Assembly (NCBI GenBank): GCA_009773805.1
Contig: WTXA01000002.1
Span: 744,001 to 808,000, forward strand
Direction: 5' to 3'
From: Fusobacteriota bacterium
GTDB taxonomy: Bacteria; Bacillota; TC1
Length of the DNA stretch: 64,000 bases
This document shows positions 3,706-64,000 of this stretch, in pieces. Numbering within the stretch: position 1 is the first letter of the stretch; each line of letters begins with the position of its first letter. A program made the translations under genes and the position numbers. The notes under the pieces were generated by a model. That model was not told where the DNA came from and did not search any database. It saw only the letters and a program-made list of their open reading frames with translations.

Positions 3706-4719
3706 TTATTTAACAGCTTTTCCTGTAATCATGTGTATTGCATTTTCGTTTTTCAGGCCATAGATCATTTTTTGTCTAGTGGCGATGAAGTTCACATTAT
3801 GTAAGCCTATTTGGATAAAATCAGAGTGAGGATGATCATTGACACCAAAGTCAAGGAAGGCTCCAAAGCCAATTTTACCTGCTGCAAAAACAGAAGAGTA
3901 GTTCATAAACATTTCATCCATTGAAGCAATACTCATAAGATAAGTCATATAGGAGGGGGATTCAATTAATAGTCTTTCCATACCTAGTTGCTTTAGAATA
4001 TAGAGTAATAATGGTCCATCGGTTGTTGAGCCTTCCCCTGTGCCAATTAATAGTCTTTGTTTTGGCTTGGCTTCAAATAGACTTTTAAGCTCTTCAATAT
4101 TTACTTCTTCTTTATTCTTATATGGTCCTAAGACTATAAATTCCTTATCACTATTTTTTTGAACATAGTCAACACCGTTTGGTGAAGTAGCAATTGCTAG
4201 TGGGGCATCAATATCAAAAACTGAATGATTAAGTGGAATATCAGTACCATCAAAGGATACTAAAATATGTGCCGGACAGTAGTGTTTTTTCTTTAGATAT
4301 GGTATCCGAAGATCAGCTAACTCAGGGTCGAAACAATTGGCGTTCATTACTTCATTGTCAATTAAGGTTCTTGCTCCAATAATTATACCATCAGAGTAAA
4401 AACGTAAGATATTTAGAACCCAATAGTCTCCGAGACCTCCATCTGGGTCTCTAAAGTTGTTGCCAGCAATCAAGTCCCCATGGGTATCGTCAGGGAAGGA
4501 AATTTTGCCATCAACAGAAACTACTATTGAGGCGAAAGTATAGGGTCTATCCTCTGGTGCTGGTGGAAATTGAACTTCTCCATAGCCATCTAAAATTTTG
4601 GCAGGTGTTCCAGGTTCTGGAGATGTTGCTCTTATTTTAGCAAAATGTTCTTCATTCCTCATCAATGTTTGAAATTTGACTTTCTCAACTGGAAAGTCTA
4701 ATAGAGTAAAATTGTTCAT
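3706..4719 (-). CDS. RibD C-terminal (dihydrofolate reductase-like) domain protein
   Basis: 337 residues. The segment starting PYTFASIVVSVDGKI, with GIIIGARTL and ILVSFDGTDI further on, and a C-terminal GEGSTTDGPLLLYILKQLGMERLLIESP, matches the RibD_C / dihydrofolate reductase-like fold, an NADPH-dependent reductase. There is no cytidine-deaminase half as in true RibD, and the protein has about 70 extra N-terminal residues before the fold. It may act in pterin or flavin reduction, but the substrate is unknown. The start is well placed, with AGGAGG just upstream on the - strand. It is a single gene, divergent from the SDR gene at 4937. Confidence 0.75.
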   Translation of the reverse strand: MNNFTLLDFPVEKVKFQTLMRNEEHFAKIRATSPEPGTPAKILDGYGEVQFPPAPEDRPYTFASIVVSVDGKISFPDDTHGDLIAGNNFRDPDGGLGDYWVLNILRFYSDGIIIGARTLIDNEVMNANCFDPELADLRIPYLKKKHYCPAHILVSFDGTDIPLNHSVFDIDAPLAIATSPNGVDYVQKNSDKEFIVLGPYKNKEEVNIEELKSLFEAKPKQRLLIGTGEGSTTDGPLLLYILKQLGMERLLIESPSYMTYLMSIASMDEMFMNYSSVFAAGKIGFGAFLDFGVNDHPHSDFIQIGLHNVNFIATRQKMIYGLKNENAIHMITGKAVK

Positions 4720-4818
4720 AAATGAACCTCCTGTAATATTTTCACATTATGAGATCATGTCATAACAGTTACTAAATTATACTCCTTGAGTCATCCAATG
4801 TCTATAGTATTGACGTAT

Positions 4819-24908: not shown

Positions 24909-25583
24909 GTGGAAGATATGTCAGAATTGGATTTAAATGAACTTTTTCATAGGTTGAAGAAAAGATTGGGTATGATTATTTTTATTACCTTGTTGATTGC
25001 TGGGGCTGCTTTTGTTGTTAGTTATTTTGTTATTAGTCCTAAGTATGAAGCTAAGATTAGCATTATTATTGGTAAGGAGGATACTTCTAAGGAGACTACT
25101 AGTTCTGATGTGACTATGTATCAGAGTTTGATGCAGACTTATAGGAGTATTGCGATGACTAATATGGTGGCAGAGAATGCTGCTAGTAAGCTAAAAAGTA
25201 TTGAGACTGAAGATTTGCTTAAGAATACTACTGTTACTACTGAGTCTGGGACTATGATTATGAGTATTGCTGTTAGAGATGGTAATCCTGAGTTGGCTCA
25301 TAGGGCTGTTGAGGCTTATGGTGCTTCTTTTATTGATAGGGCAGGAGAGCTGATGCCTAGTGGTGAGGTTACTATTATGGATAGTAGTAAAGTGCCGACT
25401 GAGGCTGTTAGTCCTAATGTAAAGTTGAATGTTGCTATTGGTTTTATGGTTGGTCTTATGGGTTCTGTTGGTTTGGCTTTGTTGCTGGAGCATTTTAAGA
25501 ATACTTTGGTTACGATTGAGGATGTTGAGCGTAATTTGGGTATTACTGTTATTGGTATTATTCCTGAAAGGGAGGAAGATTAA
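24909..25583 (+). CDS. capsule chain-length / BY-kinase activator (YveK/CapA, Wzz domain)
   Basis: 224 residues with membrane helices near residues 19-40 and 183-203 and an extracellular loop between, the Wzz-type layout. The C-terminal tail (HFKNTLVTIEDVERNLGITVIGIIPE) is the cytoplasmic segment that activates the partner kinase. Start: GTG 24909, seven bases after AGGGGG; ATG 24918 is possible. It is the first gene of the polysaccharide region, and its stop overlaps the kinase start (TAATG). The sequence NTMYSSLMATY-like stretch of the 59463 paralogue corresponds to VTMYQSLMQTY here. Confidence 0.9.
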   Translation: MEDMSELDLNELFHRLKKRLGMIIFITLLIAGAAFVVSYFVISPKYEAKISIIIGKEDTSKETTSSDVTMYQSLMQTYRSIAMTNMVAENAASKLKSIETEDLLKNTTVTTESGTMIMSIAVRDGNPELAHRAVEAYGASFIDRAGELMPSGEVTIMDSSKVPTEAVSPNVKLNVAIGFMVGLMGSVGLALLLEHFKNTLVTIEDVERNLGITVIGIIPEREED

Positions 25584-57359: not shown

Positions 57360-58274
57360 TTATTTCAACAGCTTTAGCTGATCGTCGTACATTTTAGCTG
57401 GCAGTTGGATGTATCCAACTTCTGTTGCTAAGTCTTTGGCATTTTCGATATAGAATTTCAGGAATTCCATAACTTCTTTTTTATCAAGTGATGCTTTATT
57501 CACGTAGATGAATAGTGGTCTTGATAGTGGAGTGTAAGTTCCATCTTCAATTGTTTTAGGTGATGGTTTTACATCGTTTATAGAAACTATTTTTAGTTTG
57601 TCCTTATTTTCTTCATAGTAGGCATAGCCGAAGAAACCAATTGCGTTTTTGTCTCCTGCAATACCTTGTACTAGTACGTTGTCATCTTCACTACCAGTAA
57701 AGTCTTGTCTGATTGCTCCACTTTCTCCATTGATTTCTTCAGTGAAGTAGTCGAAAGTTCCAGAGTCAGTTCCTGGTGCATACAATTTAATCTTTTCATC
57801 AGGCCATGAAGAATCTATATCTTTCCAAGTTTGTACTTTGCTTCCTGGTTCCCATATCATTTTTAGTTGATCTGTTGTTAGATTGTTAACCCAAGTGTTA
57901 TCTTTATTAACAATTACTGAAAGACCGTCGAAAGCTACTGTTAGCTCAAGGTATTCAATTCCTGCTGCTTTAGCTGCTGCTGCTTCTTCGTCTTTGATTG
58001 GTCTAGATGCATCGGCGATGTCTATTTCTCCAGCGATAAATTTCTTAAAGCCTCCGCCAGTTCCTGAAACACCTACAGGTATTTGCATGTCTGGGTTTAG
58101 TCCGATAAATTCTTCGGCTACTGCCTCAGTTATTGGGAATACTGTTGATGAGCCGTCAATCCTTATTTCTCCCTCAAGTCCTGTAGCTGTTTGTCCGCCA
58201 CATGCTGTTAGGACGATTGGTGCTACTAAAGCGAATGTTAGTAATGTTACAATTTTTTTAGTTAATGATTTCAA
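57360..58274 (-). CDS. pstS: phosphate ABC transporter, phosphate-binding lipoprotein
   Basis: 304 residues, lipobox VLTACGGQ. IRIDGSSTVFPITEAVAEEF, VSGTGGGFKKFIAGEIDIADASRPI and PGTDSGTFDYFTEEI are the phosphate-binding loops of PstS. The start is TTG 58274 with GAGGAG (58283-58288) upstream. An out-of-frame ATG at 58281 opens a seven-codon frame that overlaps the start. Confidence 0.94.
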   Translation of the reverse strand: MKSLTKKIVTLLTFALVAPIVLTACGGQTATGLEGEIRIDGSSTVFPITEAVAEEFIGLNPDMQIPVGVSGTGGGFKKFIAGEIDIADASRPIKDEEAAAAKAAGIEYLELTVAFDGLSVIVNKDNTWVNNLTTDQLKMIWEPGSKVQTWKDIDSSWPDEKIKLYAPGTDSGTFDYFTEEINGESGAIRQDFTGSEDDNVLVQGIAGDKNAIGFFGYAYYEENKDKLKIVSINDVKPSPKTIEDGTYTPLSRPLFIYVNKASLDKKEVMEFLKFYIENAKDLATEVGYIQLPAKMYDDQLKLLK

Positions 58275-58482: not shown

Positions 58483-58541
58483 TTGACAATTAAGTATATG
58501 CTCAAATATAATAAAAACATGATGATTGAGCGACTATTCAA
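58483..58541 (+). promoter_or_regulatory. promoter with two CadC/ArsR-like operators
   Basis: TTGACA (58483-58488), 18-bp spacer, TATAAT (58507-58512). Dyads TTAAG-N6-CTCAA (58490-58505) inside the spacer and TTGAG-N6-TTCAA (58526-58541) after the -10. The same layout, with the same 36-bp operator spacing, is found at 60141-60199 before the ArsR gene. Confidence 0.7.
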
Positions 58542-58588: not shown

Positions 58589-59344
58589 ATGAGAATGCCA
58601 GTTGTTTTTGTTGGACATGGTTCACCAATGAATGCTATAGAAGATAACAATTATACTAAAGGTTGGAAGGAACTTGGAGAAAGAATTCCAAGGCCTAAGG
58701 CTATTGTCTCAATTAGTGCTCATTGGCAGACTAGAGGAACAAGAGTTAATGATTCAAAGAACCCTAAACAGATTTATGACTTTTATGGATTTCCTAGTGA
58801 ACTGTATGAGGTAGTTTATGATGTTAAAGGTAGTGAAGAACTAGCCAAAAGAGTAGTTAATATATTAGGAGAGTCTGTTATTGTGGATAATAGCTGGGGT
58901 ATTGATCATGGTTCCTGGTCTGTTTTATCAAGAATCTTTCCAAAAGCTGATATACCTGTAGTACAGGTTAGTTTAAATTATGATATGACACCAAGTGACC
59001 ATTTTGAATTAGGCAAGAGACTGTCTGGATTAAGAAATGAGGGTTATTTAGTCTTTGGTAGTGGTAATATTGTTCATAATCTAGGTATTATAGATTGGAA
59101 TCAAAGTGGTGGTTTTAGTTGGGCAGAAGAGTTTGATACTATGATTAACAAACATATATTGGCAGGTGATTATGACTCTTTAATGGAACTTGGACATGGT
59201 GGTAGTCTTGCAGTACCGACTAGGGAGCACTATCTACCACTAATAGTTTGTCTTGGTGCTACTCTTGATAATGACAAAGTTGAAATTTTTAATGAGGGTT
59301 GTGTTTTAGGCTCAATATCAATGACTAGCTATATATTCAAATGA
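58589..59344 (+). CDS. LigB-family extradiol dioxygenase (YgiD/DODA-like)
   Basis: 251 residues, GGAGGG before ATG. VVFVGHGSPMNAIEDN (first metal His about residue 10), SISAHWQTRG (second, about 47), IDHGSWSVLSRIFP and SGNIVHNLG. The family uses a metal ion to open catechol rings (DOPA 4,5-dioxygenase in plants; YgiD in E. coli). The zinc-type metal site and the metal-sensor-like promoter agree, but a role in metal stress is not proven. No terminator hairpin is obvious. Confidence 0.88.
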   Translation: MRMPVVFVGHGSPMNAIEDNNYTKGWKELGERIPRPKAIVSISAHWQTRGTRVNDSKNPKQIYDFYGFPSELYEVVYDVKGSEELAKRVVNILGESVIVDNSWGIDHGSWSVLSRIFPKADIPVVQVSLNYDMTPSDHFELGKRLSGLRNEGYLVFGSGNIVHNLGIIDWNQSGGFSWAEEFDTMINKHILAGDYDSLMELGHGGSLAVPTREHYLPLIVCLGATLDNDKVEIFNEGCVLGSISMTSYIFK

Positions 59345-59462
59345 TGAAGTCGACTTGTTCATTATATTTTAATAATAGGTGGTACTAAATACTATATGTA
59401 TTCAAAAAAAAACAGATTTATGTTATAATATAGAAGTTATTAATTCAATTTGGAGGTACTTT

Positions 59463-60089
59463 ATGGAAGATTATGAAGAATTTAGTTTTATTGATTTTAT
59501 TTTAAGGATAAAGAAAAGAATCGTATTGGTTGTAGGAATTATTATTGTTGCAACTATTATTCCTTTAGTGGTTGGTATTGTTTCATACAAACCTGTATAT
59601 GAAGCTAAAACGGGAATTATTGTTGAAATGCCTAGACAAGATATAGACTCTCGTGCTACTGATAATACAATGTACTCAAGCTTGATGGCAACATATATTC
59701 AAATTGCTAAGACAAACAATATAGCAGAAATGGCTGCTTCCGAATTAAAGGATATTACTAAAGAAGAATTATTAAAGGGCGTAGATGTGACAACAGAAGA
59801 TTCAAGTATGTTTATGTATATTTCAATAACTAACGAGGATCCTAATATTGCATACAAGGCTGTTAATGCATATGCAAAAGCATTTTTAATAAGAGCTACA
59901 GAATTATTGCCAGAAGGTAAATTGACTATATTTGATGATAGTCAAAAGCCGATAAGCCCTATTAATAGTAATGTAAAAACTATTAATATAGCAATAGGTT
60001 TTGTTTTAGGTGTTATGCTTTCAGTTATGTTAGCATATATTCTTGAAGAATTAGAGATTAGAAAAAAGATATCAAAAATATCTAGATAA
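59463..60089 (+). CDS. orphan Wzz-domain chain-length protein (YveK-like)
   Basis: 208 residues from ATG 59463 (TTGGAGG seven bases before); the longer reading from 59379 includes promoter-like DNA (TATAAT 59425-59430). Two helices (about 19-42 and 180-200) flank an outer loop. NTMYSSLMATYIQIAKTNNIAEMAASELK aligns with VTMYQSLMQTYRSIAMTNMVAENAASKLK of the 24909 protein. It stands alone, with a terminator right after it, and lacks the long kinase-activating tail (ends KKISKISR). Confidence 0.85.
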   Translation: MEDYEEFSFIDFILRIKKRIVLVVGIIIVATIIPLVVGIVSYKPVYEAKTGIIVEMPRQDIDSRATDNTMYSSLMATYIQIAKTNNIAEMAASELKDITKEELLKGVDVTTEDSSMFMYISITNEDPNIAYKAVNAYAKAFLIRATELLPEGKLTIFDDSQKPISPINSNVKTINIAIGFVLGVMLSVMLAYILEELEIRKKISKISR

Positions 60090-60102
60090 AAAAGAATTAT
60101 GA

Positions 60103-60138
60103 GATAGCAGATATGGAAACATATCTGCTATCTTTTTG
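60103..60138 (+). terminator. strong intrinsic terminator
   Basis: GATAGCAGATATG, GAAA loop, CATATCTGCTATC and TTTTT: a perfect 13-bp stem (60103-60115 and 60120-60132). It isolates the metal-resistance operon. Confidence 0.92.
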
Positions 60139-60140
60139 TC

Positions 60141-60199
60141 TTGACAATTGAGTGCTTACTCAACTATAATATAAATAAGATGATTGAGCAACTGCTCAA
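60141..60199 (+). promoter_or_regulatory. metal-responsive promoter with two operators
   Basis: TTGACA (60141-60146), 18-bp spacer, TATAAT (60165-60170). Operator 1 TTGAG-TGCTTA-CTCAA (60148-60163) fills the spacer; operator 2 TTGAG-CAACTG-CTCAA (60184-60199) follows. ArsR/CadC repressors bind such dyads and block the polymerase until metal binds. Confidence 0.8.
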
Positions 60200-60234: not shown

Positions 60235-60621
60235 ATGAATAAGAAAGATATAGTATGTGACTGCAGTGTAATACATGGAGATAATGTAGAAGAAGTAAGG
60301 AAGAAAATGCCCAAGGAAGAAGAACTTTACGAATTAGCAGATTTCTTCAAGGTACTAGGAGATAGTACTAGAGTTAAGATAATGTGGGCTTTAGATATGG
60401 AAGAACTATGTGTCTGCGACCTGGCTGTCTTATTAAACATGACCAAATCAGCCATATCACACCAATTAAGAGCCTTACGTGAAGCAAGACTTGTTAAATT
60501 TAGAAAAGACGGTAAGGTAGTCTACTATTCACTAGCTGACCATCATGTCAGGCAAGTTTTTGAAATGGGTTATCAACATATTAAGGAAGAAAGAGAAAAT
60601 AACAATGAAGAAAACATATAG
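60235..60621 (+). CDS. ArsR/SmtB-family metal-sensing repressor (CadC-like)
   Basis: 128 residues. Winged helix with FFKVLGDSTRVKIMWAL, recognition helix TKSAISHQLRALREARL and wing KDGKVVYYSL. The alpha-3 metal motif ELCVCDLA (about residues 58-65) and an N-terminal CDC (residues 8-10) are the Cd/Pb ligands of CadC; the C-terminal DHHVRQVFEMGYQH (His-rich helix) could be the zinc site. It probably represses its own operon. The next gene overlaps by 17 bp. Confidence 0.92.
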   Translation: MNKKDIVCDCSVIHGDNVEEVRKKMPKEEELYELADFFKVLGDSTRVKIMWALDMEELCVCDLAVLLNMTKSAISHQLRALREARLVKFRKDGKVVYYSLADHHVRQVFEMGYQHIKEERENNNEENI

Positions 60622-60832
60622 ATTAGAAAATCTAGGCTGTGCTAACTGTTCAGCCAAGATGGAACATAAAATATCTAAGTTGAAGGGTATTGAAGAAGTA
60701 ACAGTTAACTTCTTCACAGGAAAACTTTTACTAGTTGTTGGGGATAATATATATGCTGATGATCAATTGGAAAAAGAAATAGAGAAAATTATCAAAAAAA
60801 TAGAACCGCATGTTAGATTGAAAGAGCTATAG
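60605..60832 (+). CDS. heavy-metal-associated (HMA) domain protein
   Basis: 75 residues from ATG 60605; the frame upstream of it is ArsR overlap. LENLGCANCSAKMEHKIS (GCANC about residues 10-14) is the metal site, followed by the beta-alpha-beta fold. Cation ATPases usually have this as their own N-terminal domain. Here it is a separate protein just before the ATPase (9 bp), so it is likely its metallochaperone or a split domain. Confidence 0.9.
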   Translation: MKKTYRLENLGCANCSAKMEHKISKLKGIEEVTVNFFTGKLLLVVGDNIYADDQLEKEIEKIIKKIEPHVRLKEL

Positions 60833-60841
60833 GGGGTAGAT

Positions 60842-62689
60842 GTGATAAATAAAAGACTAATCCAAATAATTGGAGCACTAATAGTATATATTCCAACTTT
60901 TTTCCTAAGTGAAGGAACACCCCTACAACTTAGTCTTTATGTAATTAGCTATCTTATTGCTGGTGGTTCAGTACTACTTAATGCAATCAGAAACATGAGA
61001 CCTGGAAGTTTCTTTGATGAAAGCTTTTTAATGTCCATTGCAACTATAGGTGCCTTCTATATTAGAGAATATCCTGAAGCAATTGCTGTTATGTTATTTT
61101 ACCAAATAGGTGAATATTTCCAAGATTATGCAGTTAATAAATCAAAAAGATCAATAACCGGACTTATGGAATTAAGAGCTGATTATGCTAATCTCAAGAT
61201 AAATGGGGATATTGTTAAAGTGGAGCCTGAAGAAGTAGTGGTGGGTAGCTTAATTGTGGTTAAGGCCGGAGAAAGAATACCACTGGATGGAGTTATTAGT
61301 GAAGGAACATCCTTTATCGATACTTCAGCCCTAACAGGGGAGGCAATACCAGCTGAAGTTGGGATTGGGTCAGAGATATTAAGTGGGTGTGTAAACCTTA
61401 ATGGACTGTTAGTGGTAAGAACAACTAACAGTTACGGTGAATCTACAGTTAGTAGAATACTTGAGCTGGTGGAGAATGCTAGTGGTAAAAAATCTAGTCA
61501 GGAAAAATTCATTACTAGATTTGCTAGATATTATACACCAATAGTGGTTATTATAGGTGTTATGCTAGCAACTATACCTCCTTTTGTACTTGGGTTAGGG
61601 ACTTTTGATACTTGGCTCTATAGAGCTTTAGCTTTCTTGGTGGTTTCTTGTCCTTGTGCTTTAGTAGTTTCAATACCTTTAAGTTTCTTTGCAGGTATTG
61701 GAGCAGCTTCTAAGGAAGGGATTCTAGTAAAGGGTGGCAGCTATCTTGAAGCTCTTGCAAAGGTAGATACTGTTATTTTTGATAAAACAGGGACTTTAAC
61801 TAAAGGTGTTTTTGAAGTTGAAAATATTGTGACTTTTAATGATGTTGAGCGAGATGAATTATTAGAAATGGCCGCATATAGTGAGTCCCATTCTAGTCAT
61901 CCGATATCTGACTCCTTAAAAAGAGCTTATGGTGCAGAAATTATAGATAAGAGAATTGGGGATGTTCAAGAAATCCCAGGACTTGGGATTATTGCTTATG
62001 TTGATGGTAGAAAAGTTGTAATAGGTAATAGAAAATTAATGGATCAAGAAGCGTTATCAATTGATATTAGTAATGATGAAGTGCTGGGTACAGTAGTACA
62101 TATTGGTATTGATGGAATCTATGGTGGCTATATTACTATAGCTGATGAAATAAAGACAGACACCTTGGCAACAATTAAGGAGTTAAGAAAGTTGGGTGTG
62201 ACCAAAATTGTTATGCTGACTGGAGACTCTAATAAGGCAGCGATGAAAGTTGCAGCAGAACTAGGGATAGATGAATACTATGGAGAACTTATGCCTGGTG
62301 ACAAATTGGATAAGTTAGAGGATATATTAAATGGTGAGGGCAAAGGTAAAGTTATATTTGTTGGTGATGGAATTAATGATGCACCAGTTCTTGCTAGAGC
62401 CGATATTGGAATTGCCATGGGTGGCCTTGGTAGAGATGCAGCTATTGAGGCTGCGGATGTGGTCATTATGCAAGATGAACCAATTAAAGTGGTAACTGCA
62501 ATTAAACTTGGACGTAGGATTGTTGGGATTGCAACGGCTAATATAGTGATGGCACTAGGCATTAAGGGGATTGTGCTGGTATTAAGTGCCCTGGGTTATG
62601 CAAGTCTATGGATGGCGGTATTTGCAGATGTTGGAGTTACAGTATTGGCAGTATTTAATTCCTTGAGAGCTTTAAAAAGAAAGGGGTAA
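60842..62689 (+). CDS. cadA: heavy-metal P1B-type ATPase (CadA/ZntA-like), no HMA domain
   Basis: 615 residues from GTG 60842 (GGGGGTAG upstream). Eight helices expected. The actuator TGEAIP, the transmembrane CPC in VVSCPCALVVS (about 270), phosphorylated Asp in DKTGTLTKG (about 314), SHSSHPIS and GDGINDAPVLARADIG (about 507) are present. The CPC motif and the CadC-like regulator point to Zn/Cd/Pb export. It lacks the usual N-terminal HMA, supplied by the gene before it. Confidence 0.93.
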   Translation: MINKRLIQIIGALIVYIPTFFLSEGTPLQLSLYVISYLIAGGSVLLNAIRNMRPGSFFDESFLMSIATIGAFYIREYPEAIAVMLFYQIGEYFQDYAVNKSKRSITGLMELRADYANLKINGDIVKVEPEEVVVGSLIVVKAGERIPLDGVISEGTSFIDTSALTGEAIPAEVGIGSEILSGCVNLNGLLVVRTTNSYGESTVSRILELVENASGKKSSQEKFITRFARYYTPIVVIIGVMLATIPPFVLGLGTFDTWLYRALAFLVVSCPCALVVSIPLSFFAGIGAASKEGILVKGGSYLEALAKVDTVIFDKTGTLTKGVFEVENIVTFNDVERDELLEMAAYSESHSSHPISDSLKRAYGAEIIDKRIGDVQEIPGLGIIAYVDGRKVVIGNRKLMDQEALSIDISNDEVLGTVVHIGIDGIYGGYITIADEIKTDTLATIKELRKLGVTKIVMLTGDSNKAAMKVAAELGIDEYYGELMPGDKLDKLEDILNGEGKGKVIFVGDGINDAPVLARADIGIAMGGLGRDAAIEAADVVIMQDEPIKVVTAIKLGRRIVGIATANIVMALGIKGIVLVLSALGYASLWMAVFADVGVTVLAVFNSLRALKRKG

Positions 62690-63169: not shown

Positions 63170-64000
63170 TTGAACAATAAGATAAGTCATTTTATAAAAA
63201 ATATGTCATACACATTTTCATCAAATTTAATATCATTATTAGTATCAACTTTAGTCATTTTAATAATACCTAAATTAATTGGGTTAGAAGGATATGGTTA
63301 TTTTCAACTATATATGTTTTATTCATCATATGTTGGATTTATGCATTTTGGCTGGAATGATGGTATTTATTTAAGATATGGTGGAGATGAGTATAAGGAT
63401 TTAAATAAAAAATTATTTTTTTCTCAGTTTATTATGCTTCTAATAAGTCAGGTGAGTATTGCATTAATAATATGGTTTGCTTCTAATTTGTTTATTACTA
63501 ATTTTGATAGAAGTTATATTATTAAAATGGTGGCTATTTCACTTATTATTCTTAACATGAGCACAATGTTATTATTTATTCTGCAAGCAACAAATCATAT
63601 TAAAGAGTATGCAAAAATAACTATGGCGGATAGAGTTATTTATATTTCACTAGTTATCACCTTTTTACTGTTTGGAATAAGAGATTATAAAATACTCATA
63701 ATTGCAGACTTAATAGGAAAAGGATTATCCTTAACATTTGCAATAGTAAGTTGTAAGGAAATTGTAATCAATAAACTAAGAGATTTTCATTTAAACTTTA
63801 AAGAGATGTTCATAAATATAAATGTTGGAATAAAATTGATGATAGCCAATATTGGAAGTATTTTAATCATTGGTATTGTTAGGTTTGGAATTGAAATAAA
63901 TTGGGATGTAGCAACATTTGGTAAAATATCATTAACGTTGAGTATATCTAACATGACAATGATATTCATCAATGCAGTTGGAATAATTTTATTCCCATTA
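63170..64000 (+). CDS. polysaccharide flippase (Wzx-like), 3' truncated by the window
   Basis: 277 codons open to the window end. TTG 63170 lies eight bases after GAGG; the first in-frame ATG is 33 bp later. FIKNMSYTFSSNLISLLVSTLVILIIPKLIG and GYGYFQLYMFYSSYVGFMHFGW, with repeated hydrophobic helices, match the N-terminal part of oligosaccharide flippases of the RfbX/Wzx kind. It probably belongs to another polysaccharide cluster to the right. Confidence 0.82.
   Translation, partial: MNNKISHFIKNMSYTFSSNLISLLVSTLVILIIPKLIGLEGYGYFQLYMFYSSYVGFMHFGWNDGIYLRYGGDEYKDLNKKLFFSQFIMLLISQVSIALIIWFASNLFITNFDRSYIIKMVAISLIILNMSTMLLFILQATNHIKEYAKITMADRVIYISLVITFLLFGIRDYKILIIADLIGKGLSLTFAIVSCKEIVINKLRDFHLNFKEMFININVGIKLMIANIGSILIIGIVRFGIEINWDVATFGKISLTLSISNMTMIFINAVGIILFPL

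Follow-up and report, generated by a model that had tools for sequence, protein, structure and literature searches.

By sequence comparison, the YgiD-type dioxygenase gene studied here probably does belong to a very small regulon of the CadC type, and toxic metals probably induce its expression. In the 64,000-nucleotide stretch that we analyzed (the window; Fusobacteriota bacterium, GCA_009773805.1, contig WTXA01000002.1, positions 744,001 to 808,000), the dioxygenase gene and a cad operon are each preceded by a copy of one promoter–operator module. We consider it quite probable that the CadC-type repressor controls its own efflux operon as well as ygiD through this duplicated module, and that metal would free both. 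Such a CadC regulon would be of a familiar kind, with an unusual second target. An initial reading of the same DNA, made from the sequence only, had remarked that a LigB-type dioxygenase in a Cd/Zn/Pb regulon would be unusual; this holds, as we found no paper that places YgiD in a Cd/Zn regulon.

The features of the locus are collected in Table 1. The protein encoded at 58589–59344 scores 277.6 bits against the NF007914 equivalog model (cut-off 233), and its closest solved structure is that of Escherichia coli YgiD (2pw6), a 4,5-DOPA extradiol dioxygenase with the same NCBIfam equivalog and the same active-site histidines. Five histidines (H10, H45, H107, H163, and H214) are invariant across five homologues (alignment A1). 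Based on the roles of their counterparts in the plant homologue described in PMC11926856, H10, H45, and H214 are the three metal-binding residues and H107 and H163 the two catalytic ones. The wzz gene that follows has its own promoter-like site (59401–59429) and a terminator-like stem (60101–60134). A second Wzz-like reading frame, at 24912–25499 of the window, is 42% identical to this one. The cad operon (60235–62689) comprises genes for the CadC-type repressor, a small HMA protein, and a P1B Cd-family ATPase.

Table 1. Features of the ygiD–cad locus and its pirin genes. Positions are those of the window unless a locus (L) or contig (C) handle is given.
Feature	Position	Strand	Remark
pstS, conserved left-hand neighbor of the cad operon in sister genomes	57360..58274	-	beside cadC in L121, L122, L123
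Dioxygenase-gene promoter, TTGACA-N18-TATAAT	58483..58512	+	12/12 consensus match
Operator-like dyad 1, in promoter spacer, TTAAGTATATGCTCAA, left half weakened	58490..58505	+	position equivalent to cad dyad 1
Operator-like dyad 2, TTGAGCGACTATTCAA	58526..58541	+	matrix score 20.4, ranked third genome-wide
ygiD-type 4,5-DOPA extradiol dioxygenase, LigB superfamily, 251 aa	58589..59344	+	NF007914, PF02900
Wzz-like chain-length determinant gene, between the two modules	59463..60089	+	PF02706, 34 bits
cad operon promoter, TTGACA-N18-TATAAT	60141..60170	+	same module precedes cadC in G001, G003, G004
cad operator dyad 1, TTGAGTGCTTACTCAA	60148..60163	+	perfect dyad; kept in sisters
cad operator dyad 2, TTGAGCAACTGCTCAA	60184..60199	+	perfect dyad; kept in sisters
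ArsR/SmtB-family metal repressor, CadC-like	60235..60621	+	NF033788, 99.5 bits
Small HMA metal-binding protein	60608..60832	+	PF00403, 43.8 bits
P1B-type Cd/Zn/Pb-family efflux ATPase	60842..62689	+	TIGR01512, 497.9 bits
Pirin behind the cad ATPase in sister genomes	L121:12607-13527, L122:2215-3135, L123:2717-3550		L123: PF02678 + PF05726
Pirin in the window's genome	C2:808708-809532		2 kb further on, behind an inserted flippase gene

The two modules have the architecture first described for them, namely TTGACA-N18-TATAAT with one dyad in the spacer and a second that starts 36 bp after the first (58490/58526 and 60148/60184). The window contains exactly two such hexamer pairs, at 58483 and 60141; shuffled versions of the window contained 0.19 on average, and two were reached in 1 of 100 shuffles. 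Aligned without gaps, 58483–58541 and 60141–60199 are identical at 47 of 59 bases, while the runner-up 59-mer matches the cad module at 35/59, both in the window and across the whole genome. The repeat is therefore genuine, but the claim that it runs almost base for base was too strong, given an identity of 80% and the degraded first dyad of the dioxygenase copy. By element, the −35 and −10 hexamers match fully (6/6 each), the arms of dyad 1 and dyad 2 match at 10/12 each (20/24 jointly), and 10 of the 13 bases between the −10 hexamer and dyad 2 are common to both. With 18/60 and 21/60 matches, the 60-bp flanks are at background, so the likeness begins and ends with the module.

Comparison with sister genomes indicates how this arrangement may have arisen. 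In three genomes of the same genus (G001, G003, and G004), pstS on the minus strand and cadC on the plus strand lie back to back with a single module between them. The order in the window is pstS, module, ygiD, wzz, module, cadC, such that the 1.66-kb ygiD+wzz segment occupies precisely the site of the cad promoter and is flanked by a module at each end; the promoter duplication suggested earlier is thereby supported. In both window modules the dyads are spaced by 36 bp and dyad 2 carries TTGAGC, compared with 34–35 bp and TTGAAT on the same strand in the sisters, and these common features favor a duplication within the window's lineage. The sister cad modules match the window cad module at 45 of 58 positions, a divergence similar to that between the two window copies, so the dioxygenase copy appears to be under the same kind of constraint as a functional cad promoter. 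Because the sister modules drift too, the identity between the window copies gives no date for the duplication.

The reverse history is possible, though we regard it as doubtful: pstS–ygiD–wzz–cad with two modules would be ancestral, and the sisters would have lost ygiD and wzz, for example by direct-repeat recombination. A deletion between the 59-bp repeats would leave exactly the single-module state of the sisters, and G002, the most distant same-genus genome, carries a broken ygiD approximately 1.2 kb upstream of cadC on the same strand. The window protein is not the best match of that fragment, however, ranking 11th, and the G002 cad operon is not beside pst. The spacing and TTGAGC shared by the window modules also speak against an ancestral pair, although concerted evolution of the two copies, or their co-evolution with the repressor, could yield the same shared bases. 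Best hits did not support the G002 fragment (L120:7582-8032) as an ortholog of the window gene; it lies in a different context, after ogt, and fills 19% of the columns in a quick tree. A degraded ArsR/CadC-like fragment was also seen in G004 (L121:6195-6453), downstream of the pst operon and 4 kb from the intact cadC. The reverse history concerns origin alone and is compatible with the proposed regulation. In the favored duplication history, the ygiD+wzz segment would have arrived at the pstS–cadC boundary and ended up flanked by two copies of the cad promoter.

We propose that the 60235 repressor acts on two promoters, those of the cadC–hma–P1B ATPase operon and of ygiD. Without excess metal, a repressor dimer would occupy the dyad in the −35/−10 spacer and the dyad just past the start region, and RNA polymerase would be blocked. 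Binding of Cd, Zn, or Pb to the repressor would then free the DNA, and both transcription units would be expressed.

The repressor is an ArsR-type winged-helix protein (PF01022, 60 bits; NF033788, 99.5 bits against a cut-off of 55) that aligns with SmtB (1r1t, E 7.6e-23) and CadC (1u2w, E 1.6e-19). The α3N cysteine cluster is present as C8, C10, C59, and C61, combining N-terminal cysteines with a CVC in α3, and C8 and the ELCVCD motif align with CadC 1u2w. Also present is the α5 site D-x-H-(10)-H-x2-E, formed by D102, H104, H115, and E118 with the spacing of SmtB. With both signatures in place, the repressor is expected to sense metal, by analogy with the CadC/SmtB-type repressors reviewed in PMC4486848.

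To define the regulon, we trained an operator matrix on nine cad dyads from five same-genus genomes, with the dioxygenase sites excluded, and applied it to the full 1,684,042-bp genome. Three strong sites were found genome-wide: two before cadC (20.8 and 20.4) and dyad 2 of the dioxygenase promoter (20.4), which thus matches the cad sites of the genus. The next score, 16.3, lies inside a gene, and all other sites above 13 fall within reading frames. No strong site was found elsewhere in the full genome, and hence none at its other ArsR-type genes. A paired scan, which called for two dyads with starts 30–42 bp apart, returned only cadC (41.2) and the dioxygenase (30.5), with nothing else above 17. 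The sequence-only reading had predicted that the dioxygenase gene is under the CadC-like protein and had proposed a genome-wide motif scan; strong sites before cadC and the dioxygenase alone, together with the paired result, agree with that prediction at the level of sequence comparison. The regulon of the 60235 repressor would then probably consist of the cad operon and the dioxygenase. Two genomes from other families (L217 and L218) have similar paired dyads ahead of cadC, which ties the operator to CadC-type repressors. A third cad-type dyad, TTGAGTGAACGCTCAA (L217:3380-3395), was observed inside the G366 cad operon, close to where the HMA and ATPase genes meet.

Not every part of the dioxygenase operator is equally well preserved. 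The cad copy has two perfect dyads (TTGAGT..ACTCAA and TTGAGC..GCTCAA), and dyad 2 of the dioxygenase copy (TTGAGC..ATTCAA) scores on par with true cad sites. Its spacer dyad (TTAAGT..GCTCAA) has lost one core G and scores 10.0 versus approximately 20 for true sites; the dioxygenase promoter therefore lacks a fully intact pair. The lost G in one half and the background-like score (rank 93 in the matrix scan of C1 and C2) count against regulation of ygiD. They would fit a relic, in which the duplicated module still serves as a strong promoter, with perfect hexamers, while its operators give no useful repression and ygiD is effectively constitutive. We judge this unlikely. Dyad 2 has been retained at the strength of a true cad site despite lying outside the −35/−10 core, and the dyad arms have been kept at 20 of 24 positions while the flanks are at background. 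The G002 cad promoter has one dyad only, so two intact dyads are not a strict requirement. Under the proposed regulation, the weak spacer operator and intact downstream operator lead us to expect that ygiD has leakier basal expression and is induced by a smaller factor than the efflux operon. It is very improbable that two unrelated strong promoters are simply alike in AT-rich DNA: single 16-bp dyads with one mismatch are at background (36 in the genome versus 38 in the control), but the joint arrangement is unique in the genome, the dioxygenase pair scores 30.5 where otherwise only the cad promoter exceeds 17, and the match of 47/59 stands against 35/59 for the next best.

The cad operon resembles those known from Bacillota. 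CadC of Staphylococcus aureus pI258 (1u2w) and cyanobacterial SmtB (1r1t) share the ArsR fold and both the α3N and α5 signatures. In the cad operons of Bacillota, as here, the repressor gene opens an operon that also encodes a P1B Cd/Zn ATPase, with dyads of the TTGA-N8-TCAA type over the promoter. Unlike in the known operons, the proposed regulon here has a second promoter, which drives a LigB-type dioxygenase gene, and the promoter carries two dyads, 36 bp apart. One comparison involves lspB, which we take to be lipoprotein signal peptidase. A passage in PMC7840573, citing Pombinho et al. 2017, states that CadC of Listeria monocytogenes controls lspB besides cadA. As presented there, the Listeria repressor likewise has a target outside metal efflux; that target is lspB, whereas here it would be a ring-cleaving dioxygenase whose gene lies behind a duplicate of the entire cad promoter module.

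YgiD proteins are widespread among bacteria, and existing work deals with DOPA cleavage. We found nothing relevant in the literature searched that connected either YgiD or DOPA dioxygenase to cadmium, zinc, or ArsR, nor any report of the E. coli gene being under CadC-type control. In E. coli K-12, a 115-bp gap separates ygiD from the divergently oriented zupT, which encodes a metal transporter (L124:4620-6324), a suggestive but isolated neighborhood. The window's genome alone has an intact ygiD among the five same-genus genomes, and none was found in the other five genomes of the order. Among 80 ygiD loci of other bacteria, no cad-type dyad pair precedes ygiD; a strong dyad before ygiD in L019 was rejected as a cad site, since it adjoins a divergent TetR-like gene. 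A cad operon near ygiD was found at 1 of the 80 loci (L059) and a ZIP-type transporter gene at another (L028), both compatible with chance. A general link between ygiD and metal genes was rejected on these counts, and CadC control is thus no general property of YgiD. In the one locus with a cad operon, from Breznakia pachnodae (L059:1-1354 and 4001-4750), ygiD and the cadC–ATPase operon are 2.7 kb apart and point in opposite directions.

A different neighbor offers a more specific connection. In each of G001, G003, and G004, the next gene after that for the cad ATPase encodes pirin and probably ends the operon. A polysaccharide flippase-like gene (window 63170–64000, continuing to C2:808588) separates the ATPase and pirin genes in the window's genome; it is a second surface-polysaccharide gene inserted in the same conserved block as wzz. 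Pirin homologues also occur within 4 kb of ygiD at 8 of the 80 loci, always on the same strand and mostly adjacent. Outside the genus, no pirin gene was found beside the cad ATPase in the other 26 nearest ATPase loci (1.5-kb flanks), and titles and abstracts held nothing relevant on pirin with cadmium. Since a recurrent partner of ygiD is found in the sisters' cad operon, a functional reason for metal control becomes likelier than accident. One tentative reading, which we would put no higher than possible, is that the CadC regulon of the genus couples Cd/Zn efflux to a ring-cleaving dioxygenase pair, YgiD and pirin, with pirin at the operon end in the sisters and YgiD behind the duplicated promoter here. 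Induced by metal, the pair would detoxify catechols or quinones that occur with toxic metals or bind to them. That the pirin/YgiD pair clears catechols or quinones under metal stress is a guess.

Taken as a whole, the locus would be a clear snapshot of regulon growth, in which an entire promoter–operator module was probably duplicated at a gene insertion. If correct, the placement of ygiD under a metal-efflux repressor, along with pirin in the cad operon of the sisters, would provide a regulatory clue to the role of YgiD.
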